Below, in pieces: positions 3,344 to 58,816 of a DNA stretch of 64,000 bases. Position 1 is the stretch's first letter; each line of letters starts with the position of its first letter. A model generated the notes under the pieces. That model was not told the origin of the DNA. It searched no databases and saw only the letters and a list, made by a program, of their open reading frames with translations. A program made the translations under genes and the position numbers. Origin of the DNA: Ralstonia pickettii (GTDB lineage: Bacteria; Pseudomonadota; Gammaproteobacteria; Burkholderiales; Burkholderiaceae); NCBI RefSeq assembly GCF_001699815.1, contig NZ_MCGB01000057.1:248001-312000 (forward strand), given 5' to 3'.

Positions 3344-4003
3344 ATGGCGGCATCAGCCAGGTTTGGTTTTGCAGCGGTGATTTCGGTACTCGGCTATCTC
3401 GCGCTCGCAGCGTGGGGCTGGGGCGGCGTTGGCCCGCTGCTTGCGCATCCGGCACGCGTGGCGCTGGTGGTGGTGACGGCTGCGCTGACGATTGCTGCAA
3501 TGTTCGCAGGCGGCAATCTCAGCGCCGGTGAGCGAGAGGACCGGTCCAACCGGTGGGTGTTGCCCGTGTTTGGCTTGATCGGCCTCGTCAGCGCCTGGCT
3601 GCCGGCGTATACGGACCGGCACGACCTCTTTTGCATCGACGGCGATTTGGTGAGGTGGCTGGGTGTGGTGCTCTATGCCGCGGGCGGCGCCCTGCGGTTG
3701 TGGCCCGTGCATGTGCTGGGCAACCGCTTCAGCGGACTGGTGGCGATTCAGCCGGGCCATACGCTGATGACCAGCGGCATCTACCGCTACGTGCGCAACC
3801 CCAGTTACGTGGGATTACTGGTCAGTACGCTGGGATGGGGCCTGGGATTCCGGGCGGTGGCCGGCGTGGTGCTCACCGCATTGCTGATTCCGCCGCTGGT
3901 GGCACGCATGCACGCTGAGGAAGCCCTGCTGCAATCGCAATTTGGCGCCGAATACGACGCATACCGTGCCCGGACCTGGCGCCTGATTCCTGGCTTGTAC
4001 TAG
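3344..4003 (+). CDS. isoprenylcysteine carboxyl methyltransferase-like membrane protein
   Basis: A 219-residue integral membrane protein with four or five hydrophobic segments. The C-terminal half holds the ICMT/PEMT signature: GHTLMTSGIYRYVRNPSYVG, in which the R-x-P-x-Y core binds S-adenosylmethionine in characterised family members, and a terminal E-x-x-L-x-x-x-F-G-x-x-Y (EALLQSQFGAEYDAY). This supports a membrane methyltransferase acting on a lipid or prenyl-linked group. Bacteria lack CaaX proteins, so the substrate is unknown. GGAG lies ten bases upstream of the ATG. It converges with the lipoprotein gene ending at 4012. Confidence 0.8.
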   Translation: MAASARFGFAAVISVLGYLALAAWGWGGVGPLLAHPARVALVVVTAALTIAAMFAGGNLSAGEREDRSNRWVLPVFGLIGLVSAWLPAYTDRHDLFCIDGDLVRWLGVVLYAAGGALRLWPVHVLGNRFSGLVAIQPGHTLMTSGIYRYVRNPSYVGLLVSTLGWGLGFRAVAGVVLTALLIPPLVARMHAEEALLQSQFGAEYDAYRARTWRLIPGLY

Positions 4004-4011
4004 CGCCTCGT

Positions 4012-4314
4012 TCAAAGCGGCAGCGCAAGACACTGGACATCCGGCGCCGTATAAGGCGTCGGATACGGCGACCTGGGCCCCACCTCCAGCCGCATCGGGG
4101 CAAGCGCAAGCACCTCGGCTTCGTTGCGCTCGCGCGTAGTCAGCGCCGGCCCCGGCGGAGCGGGCCGGACCAGCGGCTCGTTGATGGCGCAGCGCACATG
4201 CTTGCCGTCATGCAGGCGCACCTCCATCGTGTAAGACGGGCCCGAGACGACGGGAGTGCACGCCGCTGCACCCCAGGCGAATGCCACCAGCAGCAGCCAA
4301 CGACGTGTTCCCAT
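4012..4314 (-). CDS. hypothetical small lipoprotein
   Basis: A 100-residue protein with an N-terminal signal sequence, MGTRRWLLLVAFAWGAAAC, ending in a lipobox-like AAAC, so it is probably lipid-anchored after cleavage. The mature part is Pro-rich with two cysteines and contains YTMEVRLHDGKHVRCAI. I do not recognise a named family. The ATG at 4314 is chosen because GGGAGGT lies five bases upstream; longer in-frame starts have no ribosome site. It lies just downstream of ureG on the same strand, 76 bases after its stop, and may be the last gene of the urease transcript, but nothing in its sequence links it to urease. Confidence 0.6.
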   Translation of the reverse strand: MGTRRWLLLVAFAWGAAACTPVVSGPSYTMEVRLHDGKHVRCAINEPLVRPAPPGPALTTRERNEAEVLALAPMRLEVGPRSPYPTPYTAPDVQCLALPL

Positions 4315-4390
4315 CCGGCACCTCCCATCACGCACAGACCACCGTGGATTTGACTTGCCGTGCGATCGGGAGTGCCCCGTATCCGGCTCC

Positions 4391-5011
<621 letters not shown>

Positions 5012-5022
5012 GATGATCAGGT

Positions 5023-5712
5023 TCAGGAACGAAAGAGTCGTGAGTATTGCGTTTCATGCCGGGCGGACAGCACGCCCAGCCCCGGCGAAAACGTAGACAG
5101 TTCAGGCGGATGACAGGCCGCGCGGCGTGTCGCCTCCTCCACCGCACGCGCCACCGCTGCGTGCAGGCCAAAGAGAATCCGTTGCCCCGCAGCCTGCCCG
5201 AGCGGCACGGCCTTGACTGCCGCCGCCATCTGGTTTTCCACCCAGGCAAAGCAGTACGCCGTCACGCCATCGCGCGGGTCGACATTCAGCGCGGCAGCAG
5301 CGGCGGCAAACGCGGTCGGAAACGTCACCGAAGCGCATGCGGCCAAGGCACTGCGCAGTGCGTCATCGCCCCACGCCATCTGCTGGATGAGGCGATTGAG
5401 CGACCAGCCCATCTGAGACGTTTCGAGCCGCAGCTCGCGCGTCTCGCGGGTGGCGAGGAACCACGCATCGCGCTCGGCAACGGCATCGAAGCGGCCTGCC
5501 TGCCAGTCGGCAAACTGCAGCAGCCATAGCGGTGCCTCGCATGCGGCGAGCACGTCGAGCCCCTCGGCAATCCACGCGGCAGCCGACGCTTCGTCCGCCA
5601 CGCGCCGCACATCCACCGCCGCCTCCAGCCCCTGCGAATAGCTGAACGCGCCCACCGGCAGCGCCGGGGACGCGAGATGCAGCAAGGCGGTGAGCTGCGC
5701 CGCGTTAGTCAT
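5023..5712 (-). CDS. ureF: urease accessory protein UreF
   Basis: A 229-residue all-helical UreF, the part of the urease maturation complex that docks UreG and controls its GTPase. The N-terminal [21 protein letters not shown] is the conserved UreF signature, and QMGWSLNRL and FCFAWVENQ-type helices follow. The start ATG at 5712 overlaps the last eight bases of ureE, showing translational coupling. In-frame sequence upstream of that ATG is the His codon tract of ureE read in another frame and is not part of this protein. Confidence 0.96.
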
Positions 5713-6331
5713 GGTGATGGTGGTGATGGCCGCAACCGGGCCCATGGACATGGCCGTCGTCGTGGTCGTGACCATGTGCGTGATCGTGGCCATGCGAGTG
5801 ACCATGATCGTGCCCGTGATGCTCGTGGTACAGCGCCTGCGCGGCCGCGTAGTCCTCTTCGAACGTCGCATCGTGGCCGTGACGATGGCCGCCACCATAG
5901 GCGCCCGCCTCGGGCTCGAACGGCGCCTCCACATGCGCGACGGTCACGCCCAGGCGGACCAGCATGTCTTCGAGCACCGGATCGGCTTCGAGCTGCAGCG
6001 CATCGGCGCTCACCTGCACGGGCGTGTGCCGATTGCCGAGGTGATACGCGGCGCGCATCAGCGCGAGCCGGTTGTCGCTGCTTACGCGCAGCACCTGCTC
6101 GGGCGCGGCCTGCACTTCCACCAGCGTGCCGTCTTCAGCGACCAGCACATCGCCGCCGCGCATGACGGTGCCCCGCGGCAACACGACGGCCACTTCACGG
6201 CCATCGTCGAGGGCGGCGCGCAGGCGGCTGCGGCTGCGCTCCAGGAATGGCAGCACCAGCTTGGGCGCACGCTTGACCAGCACGGAGGCCAGGCCATGCG
6301 GCGCGGGGAGATGTTTGTTGATGGCAAGCAT
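5705..6331 (-). CDS. ureE: urease accessory nickel metallochaperone UreE with His-rich tail
   Basis: A 208-residue UreE that binds nickel and hands it to UreG. The N-terminal peptide-binding domain is followed by the metal-binding domain, with GNRHTPVQV carrying the conserved nickel-ligand His. The final ~60 residues are a nickel sponge with more than 20 histidines in HxH and HDH repeats, ending [12 protein letters not shown]. Such tails occur in Klebsiella-type UreE and store several nickel ions. The gene overlaps ureF by eight bases and is separated from ureC by an unusual 186-base gap. Confidence 0.96.
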
Positions 6332-6348
6332 CTATAGGACCTAATTCG

Positions 6349-6438
6349 TCATCCAACTATGAAGCTCGAAGTTCTGAAATCCAAGCGCCACGTTCTGATC
6401 TCCACGCGTGGAGTTTCGATCTCGGAGCGGCGTGGCAT
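6349..6438 (-). CDS. candidate small ORF in the ureC-ureE gap
   Basis: A possible 29-codon ORF from ATG 6438 to TGA 6349, preceded by AGGAGGTG 17 to 10 bases upstream. It encodes MPRRSEIETPRVEIRTWRLD and nine more residues. The DNA is partly a short imperfect duplication (ATCAGAAC and TTCAGAAC units) and overlaps a perfect 14-bp palindrome, so this may be a spacer repeat rather than a gene. I know no homologue. It is listed because this gap is otherwise unexplained inside the urease operon. Confidence 0.2.
   Translation of the reverse strand: MPRRSEIETPRVEIRTWRLDFRTSSFIVG
6400..6413. repeat. 14-bp perfect palindrome in ureC-ureE spacer
   Basis: CTCCACGCGTGGAG reads identically on both strands. 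It lies inside the 186-base spacer between ureC and ureE. On its own it is too short to be a terminator and no T run follows. Confidence 0.5.
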
Positions 6439-6517
6439 CCCTTGTTTCACCTCCTGCCGGGGACGATACGACGGATGGACCAACAACAAGAAACCCGAGC
6501 CCACCCCGCACCACCAG

Positions 6518-8236
6518 CTAGAACAAGAAATACCGCTGCGCCATCGGCAACACCTCCGCCGGCTCACAAGTCAGCACCGTCCCATCCGCCACCACCTGAT
6601 ACGTCTCCGGATCCACCGAAATATCCGGCTGCCAGTCGTTATGAATCATGTCCGCCTTGCTCACAGTACGCGTGCCCTTGACGACCGCCGTGGTCTTGGC
6701 CAACCCATACTGCTCCGCCACGCCAGCCGCAGCAGCCGATTGCGACAGGAACGTCAACGACGTCCGCCCCAGCGCCCCGCCCGCTGCCCCAAACATCGGC
6801 CGATAGTGCACTGGCTGCGGCGTTGGGATCGACGCATTCGCATCGCCCATCGCCGCAGAGGCAATCATCCCGCCCTTCAGGATCAGGCTCGGCTTCACGC
6901 CAAAGAACGCAGGCTTCCACAGCACGAGGTCTGCCCACTTGCCGACTTCAACCGAGCCGACTTCATGTGCGATGCCGTGCGTGAGCGCGGGGTTGATCGT
7001 GTACTTCGCCACGTACCGCTTGACGCGGAAGTTGTCATGTCCGCCCCGCGCATCGTTCGGATCACCGGCCAGCTTGCCGCGCTGCACCTTCATCTTGTGT
7101 GCGGTCTGCCACGTACGCAGCACGACTTCGCCGACGCGGCCCATGGCCTGCGAATCGCTGGAGATCATCGAGAACGCGCCCAGGTCGTGCAGGATGTCTT
7201 CGGCGGCGATCGTCTCGCGGCGGATGCGGCTTTCGGCAAAGGCGATGTCTTCGGCGATGGACGCATCGAGGTGATGGCACACCATCAACATGTCGAGGTG
7301 CTCGTCCAGCGTGTTGACGGTGAACGGCCGCGTCGGGTTGGTCGATGACGGCAGCACGTTCGATTCACCGCACACACGGATGATGTCCGGTGCATGCCCG
7401 CCGCCCGCGCCTTCCGTGTGATACGTGTGGATCGTGCGGCCCTTGAACGCAGCGACGGTCGCTTCAACGAAGCCCGATTCGTTCAACGTATCGGTGTGGA
7501 TGGCGACCTGCGTATCGGTGTCGTCGGCCACGCCCAAGCAGCAATCGATGGCGGCGGGCGTGGAGCCCCAGTCTTCGTGCAGCTTCAGGCCGATGGCGCC
7601 TGCGTCGATCTGCTCGCGCAGCGCGCCCGGCAGGCTGCCGTTGCCCTTGCCGAGGAAGCCGATGTTCATCGGGTACGCATCCGCGGCCTGCAGCATGCGC
7701 TGCATGTGCCACGGGCCCGGCGTGCAGGTGGTGGCATAGGTGCCGGTGGCGGGGCCAGTGCCGCCGCCAATCATCGTCGTCACGCCGCTGTTGAGCGCCT
7801 CATCGATCTGCTGCGGGCAGATGAAGTGGATGTGCGTGTCGACGCCGCCGGCGGTGACGATCATGCCTTCGCCCGCGATGATCTCGGTGCCGGGGCCGAT
7901 GACGATGGTCACGCCGGGCTGGATGTCCGGATTGCCCGCCTTGCCGATCGCCGAGATGCGCCCGTTCTTCAGGCCGATGTCAGCCTTGACGATGCCCCAG
8001 TGGTCGATGATCAGCGCGTTGGTGATGACGGTGTCGGTGCAGTCTTTCGATTCGCGCTGGCTCTGGCCCATGCCGTCGCGGATGACCTTGCCGCCGCCGA
8101 ATTTCACTTCCTCGCCGTAGACGGTGAAGTCGCGCTCGACTTCGACGATGAGGTCGGTGTCGGCCAGACGCAGGCGGTCGCCCGTCGTGGGGCCGAACAT
8201 TTCCGCATAGGCGCGGCGATTGATCTTCAATGTCAT
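6518..8236 (-). CDS. ureC: urease alpha subunit UreC
   Basis: The 572-residue catalytic subunit of urease, which hydrolyses urea to ammonia and carbamate. All active-site elements are present: nickel ligands H135 and H137 ([12 protein letters not shown]), the carbamylated bridging lysine K218 with [10 protein letters not shown]247, the H270/H273 pair in [15 protein letters not shown], and the mobile flap MVCHHLD with the catalytic His near residue 321. Length matches the family (about 570). It forms the (alpha-beta-gamma) trimer with UreB and UreA encoded just upstream. Confidence 0.98.
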
Positions 8237-8249
8237 GTCCGTGTCTCGC

Positions 8250-8555
8250 TCAAAGCTTGCCCATCACACGGCCGGCGAAGCCGTAGACCACGCGATCACC
8301 CGCCAGCGCCACGAGTTCGACCGTACGCTCCTGCCCCGGCTCGAAGCGCACGGCGGTGCCGGCGGCGATGTTCAGCCGAAAGCCGCGCGCAGCTTCGCGG
8401 TCAAAGCGCAGCGCGTCGTTCACTTCATAGAAGTGGTAGTGCGAGCCGATCTGCACCGGGCGATCGCCCGTGTTGGCCACCGTTACCGTCACCGTGGGGC
8501 GGCCTGCGTTGAGTTCCAGATCGCCGTCTTGCGGCAGGAGTTCGCCGGGGATCAT
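8250..8555 (-). CDS. ureB: urease beta subunit UreB
   Basis: A 101-residue urease beta subunit. It starts [19 protein letters not shown] and contains [17 protein letters not shown], the conserved core of the family. ATG 8555 gives the standard length; the longer in-frame extension overlaps the ureJ stop and is not conserved. It lies 13 bases upstream of ureC and 13 bases after ureJ. Confidence 0.96.
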
Positions 8556-8568
8556 GGTGAAAGCCCCC

Positions 8569-9186
8569 TCAGATCGCCGTAACCAGCAGGCCTGCGCCGT
8601 ACAGCGCCACACCCACACCCGACAGACGCGCCAGCCACGCCATGCGCGGCTTCAGTGCAAAGCCCGCGCCGATGCCGGCGGTATGCAGCAGCGCCGTCGC
8701 CACGGCAAAGCCGCCAACGAAATACGGGAACATGGCCTGCGCGCCTGCGGGGAATTCCGTGCCGTGCGCATAGCCGTGGAACAGCGCGAACGCGCCGCAC
8801 AGCAGTGCACCGCCCCAGGTCGGCAGCTGCGCGCGTGCGGCAATCAGCAGGCCGAACACCAGCAGCGATGCGGCAATCATCGGCTCAGCCATCGGCAGCG
8901 CCCCGCCGCCGGCGCCGAGCAGCGCGCCCAGGATCATCAACGCGACAAAGGCGACCGGCGCCCACAACGCGTCGCGCACCGAGCGCGAGGCCAGTGCGCT
9001 CCACACACCCACGGCCACCATCGCCAGGAGGTGATCTGCACCGGTGAGCGGATGCAGGAACCCCGCGAGCAGGCTGCCCTCGGCGGTATGGCCCGGATGC
9101 CCCGGGTGAGCGAAGGCAACAGAGGCGCCAAACGTGAGCGCAATGGCCGCAGCGGGCCGGACGAAGCGAGACAGGGTAGGCGTCAT
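8569..9186 (-). CDS. ureJ: HupE/UreJ family nickel permease
   Basis: A 205-residue membrane protein with an N-terminal signal-like helix and about six transmembrane helices. The nickel-binding [12 protein letters not shown] (H-x5-D-H) in the first part is the HupE/UreJ signature. It probably brings nickel across the inner membrane for urease assembly. [11 protein letters not shown] after the signal segment may capture metal. It is inserted between ureA and ureB, splitting the three structural genes. Confidence 0.93.
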
Positions 9187-9204
9187 GGCGGGACTCGTAG
9201 TGGT

Positions 9205-9230
9205 GAGTGGCGTGCGGACTTCAGAACGTC
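9205..9230. repeat. short repeat shared with ureC-ureE spacer (imperfect)
   Basis: The plus strand here (GTGGCG then GGACTTCAGAACGTC) resembles the minus strand of 6362-6389 (GTGGCG then GGATTTCAGAACTTC). About four fifths of the bases match across some 24 positions by eye. Both copies sit at gene junctions of the urease cluster. Could be a decayed intergenic repeat family or chance. Confidence 0.3.
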
Positions 9231-9531
9231 AAACAATCGGGTGGTGGACGGTGACGAGCTTCGTGCCGTCCGGAAAGGTGGCCTCGACCTGGATGTCGGG
9301 AATCATCTCGGCCACGCCGTCCATCACGTCATTGCGCGTGAGCAGCGTGGTGCCGTAGTGCATCAGGTCGGCCACGGTCTTGCCGTCGCGCGCGCCTTCC
9401 ATGATGGCAGCGCTGATGAAGGCGACGGCTTCCGGGTAGTTGAGCTTGAGGCCGCGGCCCTTGCGGCGCTCGGCCAGCAAGGCGGCGGTGAAGATCAGCA
9501 ACTTGTCTTTTTCGCGCGGGGTCAGTTCCAC
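9229..9531 (-). CDS. ureA: urease gamma subunit UreA
   Basis: A 100-residue urease gamma subunit, the smallest structural part of the enzyme. It begins [20 protein letters not shown] and ends VTVHHPIV, both characteristic of the family, and has [20 protein letters not shown] in the middle. The start codon is GTG at 9531. It lies downstream of ureD and upstream of ureJ on the same strand. Confidence 0.97.
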
Positions 9532-24622: not shown

Positions 24623-26683
<2,061 letters not shown>

Positions 26684-54968: not shown

Positions 54969-54998
54969 TTGACTTCACGCTCGGCGGCCACCTCCTCC

Positions 54999-56015
54999 AT
55001 GACGCGCGCCGATCTGCCCACCTCCCCTGTTCCCCTCGCCTTCCTGACCGCGGCTACCGCGCGCCGCATTGCCGTGGCGCTGCAATGTGCGGCGACGCTG
55101 GCGGTTGGCTGGGCGGCACATCGCTGGGGCGGATGGAGTTGGCCGGCTGCAAGTTTGCTCGCGGGCGCGGCGCTGGTGCTGGGATATCTCCTTTCGGTCG
55201 GGTGGGCGTTCCTGGTGTCACTGAAGAGCCTGGGCACCGCGATACCGGACGACCCCGTATGGGACCGCATACCCGTGCCGCGCGAACACCGCATCGGCAT
55301 CACCGGCTTCATCGCATGTTGGTTGCGCGAATGTGTATCCGTGGCGTGGATGTTCAACGTGCTGCAACCGTTCCGAGCGCGCGCCGCGTTCGATACACCG
55401 GCGGGTGATGGCAAGCGCGTGCCCGTGCTGATGATCCATGGCTATGGCTGCAATCGCGCGGTATGGTTGCCGATGCAGCAGCATGTAGCGGCAGCCGGAT
55501 ACCCGACCGACGCCATCGATCTCATGCCGCTGCTGGGTGACATCGACGACTACGCCCGGGACATGGCGGCCGCCGTCGCGCGCCTGACGCGCATGCACGG
55601 CCGTGCGCCCGTTCTGCTCTGCCACAGTATGGGCGGGCTTGCCGCACGTGCTCTGCTGCGCCAGTCGCAGCCCTGCCCTGTCGCCCACGTCATCACGCTC
55701 GGCACGCCGCATCGGGGCACGGCAATGGCGCGTACGGGACGCGGCCACAATGTGCGCCAGATGGCTTGGGCGAGCCCTTGGCTGCGCCAGCTTGCGGCAT
55801 CCGAAATGCCGGCCTCCCGAGCACGCATCACGTCGATTTTCTCGTGGCACGACTCCATCGTCGGCCCGGCTGGTGCATCCTGGCTGGAAGGCGCGCGGCA
55901 CATCCCATTCGCGGGCATCGGCCATGTGTCGCTGTTATGCGACGCACGCGTGCGTGATGCCGTGCTGGCAGAACTCGCCCGCGTCGAAGGCGTCTCTGCT
56001 ACCCCTTCTGCTTGA
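54999..56015 (+). CDS. membrane-anchored alpha/beta hydrolase (lipase-like)
   Basis: A 338-residue protein with two N-terminal hydrophobic segments (residues about 25-70), then an alpha/beta hydrolase domain. The oxyanion segment is MIHGYGCNRAVW, the nucleophile elbow LCHSMGGLAARAL, acid Asp in FSWHDSIVGPA and His in GIGHVSLL. It resembles triacylglycerol lipase or PGAP1-like esterases. ATG 54999 is chosen over an in-frame TTG at 54969. Precedes the plcP-like gene. Confidence 0.82.
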   Translation: MTRADLPTSPVPLAFLTAATARRIAVALQCAATLAVGWAAHRWGGWSWPAASLLAGAALVLGYLLSVGWAFLVSLKSLGTAIPDDPVWDRIPVPREHRIGITGFIACWLRECVSVAWMFNVLQPFRARAAFDTPAGDGKRVPVLMIHGYGCNRAVWLPMQQHVAAAGYPTDAIDLMPLLGDIDDYARDMAAAVARLTRMHGRAPVLLCHSMGGLAARALLRQSQPCPVAHVITLGTPHRGTAMARTGRGHNVRQMAWASPWLRQLAASEMPASRARITSIFSWHDSIVGPAGASWLEGARHIPFAGIGHVSLLCDARVRDAVLAELARVEGVSATPSA

Positions 56016-56067: not shown

Positions 56068-56096
56068 ACGTCATGTGACGGTCATGTTTCTGACAC
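56068..56096 (+). promoter_or_regulatory. Pho box (three 11-bp direct repeats) upstream of plcP-like gene
   Basis: ACGTCAT-gtga-CGGTCAT-gttt-CTGACAC (56068-56096). The seven-base units repeat every 11 bases and match the PhoB consensus CTGTCAT/CTGTCAC at five, six and six of seven positions. PhoB binding here would place transcription at or after ~56115. A clear -10 hexamer is not obvious. Confidence 0.72.
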
Positions 56097-56150
56097 GGCT
56101 TTTTCATGCAGCGATGGCGAAATCCGTCCAACGCAGCCTCTGTTGCCGAC

Positions 56151-57209
56151 ATGGTCCTGCCAAATCTGCCATCGCGCCCTGGTTTCCTCCGCCGCCTCGC
56201 GCAACGCTTTCGCGCTGCTCCCCTCACCGGTTCCGACTGGAACGCTCCACCGCCACTGATGCAAATGGCCGCCGGACTCACCGCCGCGGGTGCGCTGGGC
56301 TCCGCTGTACCAGCAGGTCGGGGCGATGTCCGCGAGCATGAAGCACCGGTCGCCACGCCGGCTTCGACCTCGGCGCCCGATCGATCGGCTGACACCGACA
56401 CTGACCCGCCCGCCGAGAAAATCCAGCACTACCGCACGATCTGGCTGTCGGACATCCACCTCGGCACGCCGGGCTGCCAGGCCGACTATCTGCTCGACTT
56501 TCTCAAGCACCACAAATCGGACACGCTGTACCTGGTGGGCGACATCGTCGACGGCTGGCAACTGCGCAAGGGCTGGTACTGGCCGCAGGCACACAACGAT
56601 GTGGTGCAGAAGGTCCTGCGCCGCGCGCGCAAAGGCACACGCGTCGTCTTCATCCCAGGCAACCACGACGAGATGGCGCGCCAGTTCCACGGCCTGAACT
56701 TTGGCGACATCGAAGTCGCTGAAGACGCTGTGCACGTGACCGCCACGGGCAAGCGCCTGTGGGTCGTGCACGGCGACCTGTTCGACGGCGTGATGCAGCA
56801 CGCGCGCTGGCTGGCCTACGTCGGCGACTCGCTCTACACCTTCATCCTCGCGATGAACCGGCACTTCAACCGCATCCGCGTGCGGTTCGGTTTTCCGTAC
56901 TGGTCGCTGTCGCAATATCTCAAGCACCAGGTCAAGAACGCGGTCAACTTCATCAATTCGTTCGAGCGTGTGATGACGGACGAAGCGCGCCGCCGCGGCT
57001 GCGACGGCGTGGTCTGCGGGCATATCCACAAGGCCGAGATCCGCGAGATCGACGGCCAGCTCTACTGCAATGACGGCGACTGGGTGGAGAGCCTCTCTGC
57101 CTTGGTCGAAACCATGGAAGGCGAACTGCAGATCGTCTACTGGACGCATCTGCTCGATGCGCCGCGCACTTCCCGCCGCGCACGCCGTGCCGCTGCGGCC
57201 GCCGCCTGA
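56151..57209 (+). CDS. plcP: PlcP-like metallophosphoesterase (phospholipase C type)
   Basis: A calcineurin-fold phosphoesterase with motifs WLSDIHLGTPGCQADYLLDF, YLVGDIVDGWQLRKGWYWPQ, FIPGNHDE, VVHGDLFD and VCGHIHKAEI in order. This matches PlcP of Sinorhizobium and marine bacteria, which strips phosphate headgroups from phospholipids under phosphate limitation, and is related to LpxH. The first ~90 residues are low complexity and poorly conserved. An upstream ATG at 56106 is only nine bases after the Pho box, so I prefer ATG 56151. Stop overlaps the next gene (TGATG). PlcP over LpxH-like role is inferred from motif, neighbour and Pho box. Confidence 0.8.
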   Translation: MVLPNLPSRPGFLRRLAQRFRAAPLTGSDWNAPPPLMQMAAGLTAAGALGSAVPAGRGDVREHEAPVATPASTSAPDRSADTDTDPPAEKIQHYRTIWLSDIHLGTPGCQADYLLDFLKHHKSDTLYLVGDIVDGWQLRKGWYWPQAHNDVVQKVLRRARKGTRVVFIPGNHDEMARQFHGLNFGDIEVAEDAVHVTATGKRLWVVHGDLFDGVMQHARWLAYVGDSLYTFILAMNRHFNRIRVRFGFPYWSLSQYLKHQVKNAVNFINSFERVMTDEARRRGCDGVVCGHIHKAEIREIDGQLYCNDGDWVESLSALVETMEGELQIVYWTHLLDAPRTSRRARRAAAAAA

Positions 57210-58339
57210 TGGAAGCCCATATGACCCACACCAGCATCGACCTCGTGCAACCCGTCGCCGTCCAACCTACCCCCCAAGGAGAGCCCGTGAAAGTCATGAT
57301 CGTCACCGATGCCTGGGAACCGCAGGTCAACGGCGTCGTCCGCACCCTCACCCAGACGCGCCGCGAGCTGGAGGCCATGGGGCACATCGTCGACATGATC
57401 ACGCCGCTGGAATTCAAGACGGTGCCGTGCCCGACGTATCCGGAAATCCGCCTGTCGATCCTGCCCTCCAAGCGCGTGCGCGAGCGCATCGAAAAGTTCG
57501 CCCCGCAGGCCTTGCACATCGCCACCGAAGGCCCGCTGGGCCTGGCTGCACGCGCCTACGCGCTGCGCCATAAGCTGCCCTACACGACGGCATACCACAC
57601 GCGCTTTCCGGAGTACGTGCAGGCGCGCTTCGGCATTCCGCTGGCGTGGACGTATCGCTTTCTGCGCTGGTTCCACAGCCCCGCGCAGGCCGTGATGGCG
57701 CCGACGCCCGTGGTGCTGAAAGACCTTGCTGACTACGGCATCACCAACGGCGTGCTGTGGACGCGCGGCGTGGATCTGGACATCTTCACCGCCCAGCGCA
57801 GCAACGTGCTCAACACCGCCCATCCGATCTTCCTGTACGTCGGCCGAGTGGCGGTGGAAAAGAACGTCGAAGCCTTCCTGGAACTCGATCTGCCGGGCTC
57901 CAAATGGGTGGTGGGCGAAGGCCCCGCTCTGGCCGGTCTGAAGACGAAGTACCCGAACGTCAGCTACCTCGGCGTGCTCAAGCAACCGGAGCTGGCCAAG
58001 GTGTACGCCTCGGCCGATGTGTTCGTCTTCCCGAGCCGCACCGACACGTTCGGCCTGGTCCTGCTGGAAGCGCTGGCCAGCGGCCTGCCGGTGGCCGCGT
58101 ATCCGGTGACGGGGCCGATCGACGTGCTGGGCGATTCGCCGGCCGGCGCGCTGCGCGAAGACCTGCGCGAAGCCTGCCTGGAAGCGCTGCGCATCGACCG
58201 CGTCACCGCACGTTCTCATGCCGAGAAGTTTTCGTGGCGTGCCGCCTCGGAGCAATTCCTTGCGCACCTGCGGCCAATGCCCGCTGCACCCGCCGGCAAT
58301 ACCAAGGCCGCCGAGCCAACTACCGCCGCGGGTGCCTGA
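57209..58339 (+). CDS. agt: Agt-like glycosyltransferase (GT4), probable glycolipid synthase
   Basis: A 376-residue GT-B glycosyltransferase. The core starts VKVMIVTDAWEPQVNGVVRT at about residue 28, followed by YTTAYHTRFPEYVQARFGIP and the C-terminal sugar-nucleotide motif FVFPSRTDTFGLVLLEALAS with E-x7-E pattern. It resembles the GT4 Agt that glycosylates diacylglycerol in Agrobacterium and marine bacteria and SqdX. Its ATG overlaps the plcP stop. With PlcP supplying diacylglycerol, it would make phosphate-free glycolipids. The sugar is unknown. Confidence 0.8.
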   Translation: MEAHMTHTSIDLVQPVAVQPTPQGEPVKVMIVTDAWEPQVNGVVRTLTQTRRELEAMGHIVDMITPLEFKTVPCPTYPEIRLSILPSKRVRERIEKFAPQALHIATEGPLGLAARAYALRHKLPYTTAYHTRFPEYVQARFGIPLAWTYRFLRWFHSPAQAVMAPTPVVLKDLADYGITNGVLWTRGVDLDIFTAQRSNVLNTAHPIFLYVGRVAVEKNVEAFLELDLPGSKWVVGEGPALAGLKTKYPNVSYLGVLKQPELAKVYASADVFVFPSRTDTFGLVLLEALASGLPVAAYPVTGPIDVLGDSPAGALREDLREACLEALRIDRVTARSHAEKFSWRAASEQFLAHLRPMPAAPAGNTKAAEPTTAAGA

Positions 58340-58351
58340 GCCTTGCATTCC

Positions 58352-58816
58352 ATGAAGCCCACCACCCCGCCGGACAAGCGACTGGAAAATCCGCCCGCAC
58401 CGCCCGCGGCCGGTGCGTACTCGCCGGCCGACAACCCGCATAAGGGCAATCGCGGCATCACGCGGGCGTGGTTTGCGCTCAAGAATTCCATCAGCGGCAT
58501 CCGCTTCGCCATCGACGAGGAAAGCGCGTTCCGCCAGGAGTTGACGCTGTGCGCCATCCTGCTGCCATGCGCGTTCGTGATTCCCGCCACGGTGGTCGAG
58601 CGCATTCTGATGCTCGGCACGCTGGTGCTGGTGCTCATTGTCGAACTGCTCAATTCGAGCGTGGAAGCGGCCGTTGACCGCATCTCGCTGGAGCAGCACG
58701 GGCTGTCCAAGCGCGCCAAGGATTTCGGCAGCGCGGCCGTCATGCTCGCCCTGCTGCTGTGCGTGGGGACTTGGGTGGCGATCGCCTGGCCGTGGGTGGC
58801 GTCGCTGTTGCATTAG
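58352..58816 (+). CDS. dgkA: diacylglycerol kinase (DgkA, prokaryotic)
   Basis: A 154-residue membrane kinase with three helices, phosphorylating diacylglycerol to phosphatidate. NSISGIRFAIDEESAFRQEL and IVELLNSSVEAAVDRISLE with the catalytic Glu and the conserved Asn-Ser-Ser are present. A ~35-residue Pro-rich N-terminus is extra. ATG 58352 is preferred over TTG 58343. It follows agt by 12 bases, so may recycle diacylglycerol made by PlcP. Confidence 0.9.
   Translation: MKPTTPPDKRLENPPAPPAAGAYSPADNPHKGNRGITRAWFALKNSISGIRFAIDEESAFRQELTLCAILLPCAFVIPATVVERILMLGTLVLVLIVELLNSSVEAAVDRISLEQHGLSKRAKDFGSAAVMLALLLCVGTWVAIAWPWVASLLH

Follow-up and report, generated by a model that had tools for sequence, protein, structure and literature searches.

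We analysed a 64,000-nucleotide window of Ralstonia pickettii DNA (contig NZ_MCGB01000057.1, positions 248,001 to 312,000 of the forward strand), in which the open reading frame (ORF) list and family profiles identify three consecutive genes on the + strand, plcP, agt and dgkA. We read these genes, with a probability of roughly 0.85, as a PhoB-activated unit for membrane lipid renovation. Directly observed are the family membership of the proteins, a separate LpxH in the same genome, Pho sites and a three-gene order that recur among relatives, and the spacing of the promoter. A preliminary description of this DNA had proposed Pho-controlled lipid remodelling, and that proposal is supported by the identity of PlcP (53%) and Agt (49%) to the corresponding pair of Pseudomonas aeruginosa, together with the recurring Pho sites and the linkage to dgkA. 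The features of the locus are as follows.

56068..56107, + strand: Pho array of four 7-base units, ACGTCAT, CGGTCAT, CTGACAC and TTTTCAT, at 11-bp spacing
56118..56123, + strand: -10-like element CGAAAT, 3/6 to TATAAT, 10 bases past the fourth unit; weak as a single site
56106-57209, + strand: phosphoesterase ORF as called
56151..57209, + strand: plcP, predicted phospholipase C-type metallophosphoesterase; start at 56151 preferred over the called 56106
57209-58339, + strand: GT4 ORF as called
57276..57281, + strand: Shine-Dalgarno-like AAGGAG for agt, five bases before GTG 57287
57287..58339, + strand: agt, GT4 glycosyltransferase, probable diacylglycerol glycosyltransferase; GTG 57287 preferred over the called 57209
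58352..58816, + strand: dgkA, prokaryotic diacylglycerol kinase, from ATG 58352 to a stop at 58816; sole PF01219 match in the genome

The phosphoesterase is most likely a PlcP, and its release of diacylglycerol from phospholipids is predicted from its family. Both PlcP motifs quoted in the preliminary description are present in it, and the phylogeny suggested there as a check places it with PlcP; a grouping with LpxH did not occur. In a tree of 119 rows, mostly the best-scoring matches from longer lists and with intermediates thinly sampled, one branch with 100/100 support splits 88 PlcP from 31 LpxH rows, and the window protein stands on the same side as S. meliloti and P. aeruginosa PlcP. 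A Thioclava protein (L185), which sits on a long branch, is the row furthest out on that side. The window protein is 51% identical to S. meliloti PlcP over 262 amino acids and 53% identical to P. aeruginosa PlcP over 242, rising to 98% and 97% for Ralstonia sp. TCR112 and R. pickettii SSH4. Against the LpxH model it scores 36.1 bits, below the cut-off of 190.35, which a separate LpxH on contig C25 of the same genome exceeds with 238.8 bits. Residues D101, H103, D131, N171, H207, H291 and H293, which we take to be the metal ligands, are invariant in 31 rows and follow the calcineurin-like pattern. One record in the tree (L086) is titled as a Klebsiella pneumoniae metagenome-assembled genome, yet its PlcP falls among beta-proteobacteria-like rows; the label is probably wrong.

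Two reference loci anchor this assignment. The S. meliloti copy, which its locus numbering leads us to equate with the characterised PlcP, adjoins genes for a LuxR-type regulator and an acyl-homoserine-lactone synthase. The P. aeruginosa reference plcP (L183) overlaps a glycosyltransferase gene and lies near a cyclase gene. We take this pair to be PA3219-PA3218, on the grounds of its neighbours and because its PlcP is 46.6% identical to the S. meliloti protein. The published value is 46% (PMC8528852).

The second gene encodes a probable diacylglycerol glycosyltransferase, which would transfer glucose, glucuronate or both and so is predicted to make MGDG or GADG; over 327 residues its product shares 49% identity with Agt1 of P. 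aeruginosa. An agt match lies just downstream of plcP in 76/80 relative loci, the other four having none. A further sample comprised 57 plcP loci from other genomes, eight of them of the window's own family (two entries, L097 and L167, are one place), and here an agt match was found within the flanks of 45. At one locus, in Caballeronia sp. BR6202001591004 (L044, 4870-7172), the agt and tetR matches are each in two pieces, which suggests either a decaying unit or faulty assembly. Elsewhere in the window's genome, the 54000-68000 stretch of contig C84 (L088) holds, at 3803-9393 of that stretch, a cluster with two GT4 genes and, by our reading of the ORFs, PAP2-like and polysaccharide-deacetylase-like genes beside an RpoN-like one. 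One of its GT4 proteins shares 36% identity with the window Agt and 39% with Agt1 of P. aeruginosa. We considered this cluster as a second Pho-controlled Agt and rejected it: its best site has a weighted score of 11.1, and none of at least 10 stands before its Agt-like glycosyltransferase gene on that gene's strand.

The preliminary description had also reported three PhoB-type repeats just upstream of the genes. They are present at 11-bp spacing (56068-56096), but the array has a weak fourth unit, TTTTCAT at 56101-56107, and covers the ATG at 56106 that was called as the start of plcP. We rejected a single pair of units as evidence, since the two-unit pattern gives 7 matches in the window against 4.05 expected by chance, a count that 16/100 shuffles reach. 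Seven sites in the 64-kb window score at least 11/14, and a Pho pair of equal weighted score lies within a coding ORF (25507-25524). As for the full array, three units as good occur in 4/1448 control windows and four in 2/1448. A strict three-unit pattern, composed after the window site was known, occurs twice in the 5.24 Mb genome, and the reversed pattern does not occur there. The other occurrence precedes a 2',3'-cyclic-nucleotide 2'-phosphodiesterase ORF, which scores 620.7 bits where the cut-off is 486. A PstS-like ORF of this genome, at the head of a pst-phoU-phoB-phoR order, served as a positive control and has two 12/14 sites 27-82 bases upstream; PhoB and PhoR there were assigned by models whose cut-offs the genome's own proteins exceed, and the other names come from reading the ORFs.

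Comparison with relatives points to a retained control region. Gapped comparison to each of two other Ralstonia loci (L008 and L009) shows a single difference in the 40 bases of the array and none in the 43 bases of 56108-56150, against 15 (plus 1 unaligned) and 12 in the 52 bases that precede the array. We surveyed the 420 bases before the SDxHLG motif in 79 plcP upstreams (the window and 78 loci; L018 and L084 were too short), and a Pho site of at least 11/14 is present in 59, against 19/1448 control windows from the same loci and 13/790 dinucleotide shuffles. The loci are related, so the 79 upstreams are not independent trials. CTGTCAY-like pairs recur across genera at distances from the gene that vary between genera, and among 58 fetched loci with a box of at least 11/14 the best mean match to TATAAT, 3.05/6, falls at a spacing of 10 from the best box. 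At another locus, in Mitsuaria sp. 7 (L184, NZ_CP011515.1, 3866-8691), plcP is followed by ppk1 and an opposite-strand Ppx/GppA gene, with no agt in place; 12/14 and 11/14 Pho sites precede plcP and ppk1, respectively. Here, lipid-derived phosphate may pass into polyphosphate.

The control region also bears on the gene starts. Given that ATG 56106 lies inside the fourth Pho unit and upstream of the -10-like element, it cannot head a message from that promoter, and plcP most likely starts at 56151. By eye, this ATG corresponds to the start region of the Cupriavidus loci, and past it the differences between Ralstonia loci fall mostly at third codon positions. The preliminary description had the plcP stop overlapping agt. 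The called ORFs do share one base, but the overlap is probably an artefact of ORF calling, with agt beginning at GTG 57287: differences in 57207-57286 are distributed over the codon positions as 1/3/3 and 1/4/3 in two Ralstonia comparisons, unlike coding stretches, the GTG lines up with residue 1 of Agt1 from P. aeruginosa, and AAGGAG stands just before it. Upstream of the array, an alpha/beta hydrolase ORF (54969-56015) ends 52 bases away; alpha/beta hydrolase matches also precede plcP in six Cupriavidus loci, in Pandoraea (L034) and in Pigmentiphaga (L067, L083).

The third gene follows 12 bases behind agt, as originally described (stop 58339, ATG 58352). Its product matches PF01219 nearly over its full length (106.4 bits against a cut-off of 22.3; profile positions 2-101 of 102) and aligns over about 115 amino acids, at E 4e-23, with solved diacylglycerol kinase chains that are presumably the E. 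coli enzyme. We searched the same 80 genomes of the window's family for plcP and dgkA, which are present in 58 and 64, respectively, and every one of the 58 plcP genomes also carries dgkA. In 51 of these, dgkA lies at most 2.5 kb downstream of plcP on the same strand, and 40 of these 51 genomes carry no second dgkA; one linked genome, G574, has dgkA at 2440 bases and a broken plcP match. Among the 80 relative loci the order plcP-agt-dgkA is found on one strand in 60, and 5 end too soon; Cupriavidus necator A5-1 (L014) is one example with all three genes. Of the 49 loci outside the family, L094, L095, L099 and L119 have dgkA close to plcP but differently arranged.

Several observations weigh against the reading of a PhoB-activated renovation unit. 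The fourth Pho unit and the -10 hexamer are each weak on their own, and 20/79 plcP upstreams lack an 11/14 site. No such site precedes plcP in S. meliloti or P. aeruginosa. At the P. aeruginosa locus, for which a box has been reported (PMC8528852), CTGTCAC, CGGTCGC and CTGTCAC are nevertheless visible by eye at 11-bp spacing, and the threshold therefore misses sites. For dgkA, 7/58 plcP genomes carry it elsewhere, 6 family genomes have it without plcP, and 11/80 relative loci have agt with no dgkA within the stretch. Co-occurrence of plcP and dgkA partly reflects genome size, because several of the family genomes lacking both are very small. In Burkholderia and Paraburkholderia, some 90-460 bases separate the agt stop from the point where the dgkA match begins, leaving room for a separate dgkA promoter. 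Sequence does not reveal the sugar donor of Agt, whose scores against curated models are far below cut-off. The case is built from sequence, and the expression, binding and lipid readings are predicted.

Relatives of the phosphoesterase are commonly annotated as a lipid A enzyme, UDP-2,3-diacylglucosamine diphosphatase (24/30 plasmid-record relatives), and 9/10 matched PDB sequences are LpxH, with which the metal-binding pattern is shared. That the gene encodes a second LpxH-type enzyme is nevertheless highly improbable, and we rejected this identity on the low model score, the fully supported separation from all 31 LpxH rows and the presence of another protein that exceeds the LpxH cut-off; the linkage of the gene to agt and Pho sites likewise speaks against it. 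It is also quite unlikely that the array serves a different OmpR-type regulator, with the unit answering some other envelope stress. Binding sites of related regulators can look alike, and the genome holds 58 PhoB-model matches, one of them over the cut-off; against this, the CTGTCAY-like pairs are shared across genera, the only other strict array match precedes a 2',3'-cyclic-nucleotide phosphodiesterase, and similar sites precede the PstS-like ORF.

A further alternative concerns dgkA alone, which might be a mere neighbour of a Pho-controlled plcP-agt pair, with its own promoter. The kinase would then handle diacylglycerol that arises by other routes, such as periplasmic glucan or lipid A decoration. 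The wide agt-dgkA gaps in Burkholderia and Paraburkholderia and the 6/64 dgkA genomes without plcP fit this view, and as the sole copy in the window's genome dgkA likely has a housekeeping duty. We consider it unlikely, though less remote than the other two, given the 12-base gap in Ralstonia, the adjacency to plcP in 51/58 genomes and the different arrangements outside the family in which dgkA again stands beside plcP.

These data allow us to propose how a three-gene renovation unit under PhoB would work. When phosphate is scarce, phosphorylated PhoB would bind the 11-bp array and recruit RNA polymerase to the -10 element about 10 bases downstream. PlcP would then remove the phosphate headgroup from phospholipids to yield diacylglycerol, to which Agt would add a sugar, giving a phosphate-free glycolipid. 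Diacylglycerol unused by Agt would be converted by DgkA to phosphatidate, limiting diacylglycerol build-up and feeding phospholipid synthesis. We infer these steps, from the binding of PhoB through the chemistry of PlcP and Agt to the role of DgkA. DgkA spends ATP in making phosphatidate, which seems contrary to phosphate saving, and the simplest reading is that it drains off diacylglycerol beyond what Agt can take up. A bolder idea, which we offer tentatively and regard as doubtful, is that in the Ralstonia family the phosphate switch controls not a one-way lipid swap but a junction from which diacylglycerol can go three ways: because the sole DgkA-type kinase sits directly behind PlcP-Agt in 40/58 plcP genomes, starvation would also drive diacylglycerol to phosphatidate. 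If so, the ratio of Agt to DgkA activity, and not PlcP alone, would determine the real loss of phospholipid, and PlcP and DgkA would form a headgroup-exchange cycle. Separately, a PF13444 match lies near ppk1, phoR and phoB in the 62000-80000 stretch of contig C57 (L195; 6023-6328 of that stretch). The fragment is similar to ornithine acyltransferases of the OlsB type, though its score is below cut-off, and ornithine lipids free of phosphate may thus be a further product of the window's genome.

Lipid renovation under phosphate stress is an established response in alphaproteobacteria, SAR11 and Pseudomonas. The present data likely extend its reach, with recurring Pho sites, to the large family to which Ralstonia, Cupriavidus, Burkholderia and Polynucleobacter belong, where the frequent naming of PlcP relatives as a lipid A enzyme has hidden the pathway in annotation. 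Searches of titles and abstract openings, mostly outside the subscription journals, turned up no account of the three genes as a unit in any beta-proteobacterium, Ralstonia included. The idea is nevertheless less new than the preliminary description took it to be: Pho-controlled PlcP-Agt and PHO-dependent DagK have already been published for Pseudomonas (PMC8528852, PMC5082522).

One of the closest known systems is the Pho-controlled PlcP-Agt1 pair of P. aeruginosa (PA3219-PA3218), which has the same gene order and reported Pho control at 53% and 49% identity (PMC8528852). Unlike the Ralstonia locus, the P. aeruginosa L183 locus is without dgkA. P. aeruginosa also has a second, unlinked Agt2 according to the same report (PMC8528852), whereas the next GT4 in the Ralstonia genome, the 36% match on C84, has no clear Pho site. 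In marine bacteria, plcP-agt neighbourhoods carry Pho boxes, with agt downstream of plcP in type 2, and the main text of that paper, which also treats S. meliloti PlcP, names no diacylglycerol kinase (PMC4796936). S. meliloti PlcP belongs to the same phosphoesterase family, at 51% identity, but its gene stands apart from agt. In P. putida BIRD-1, PlcP and DagK are enriched under phosphate depletion, and the discussion terms both PHO-dependent along with OlsA and OlsB; the passage on the phoBR mutant names PlcP and OlsAB but not DagK, and the passages on the pair state neither a shared operon nor the kinase family of DagK (PMC5082522). The PlcP and Agt steps have precedents in other bacteria; what is newer is the conserved kinase in third place. 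The E. coli DgkA is likewise a PF01219 membrane kinase, its gene presumably unlinked to any plcP-agt pair. Linked to plcP and agt in the Ralstonia family, the kinase raises a testable question: whether PlcP-derived diacylglycerol is committed to glycolipid or partly recycled.

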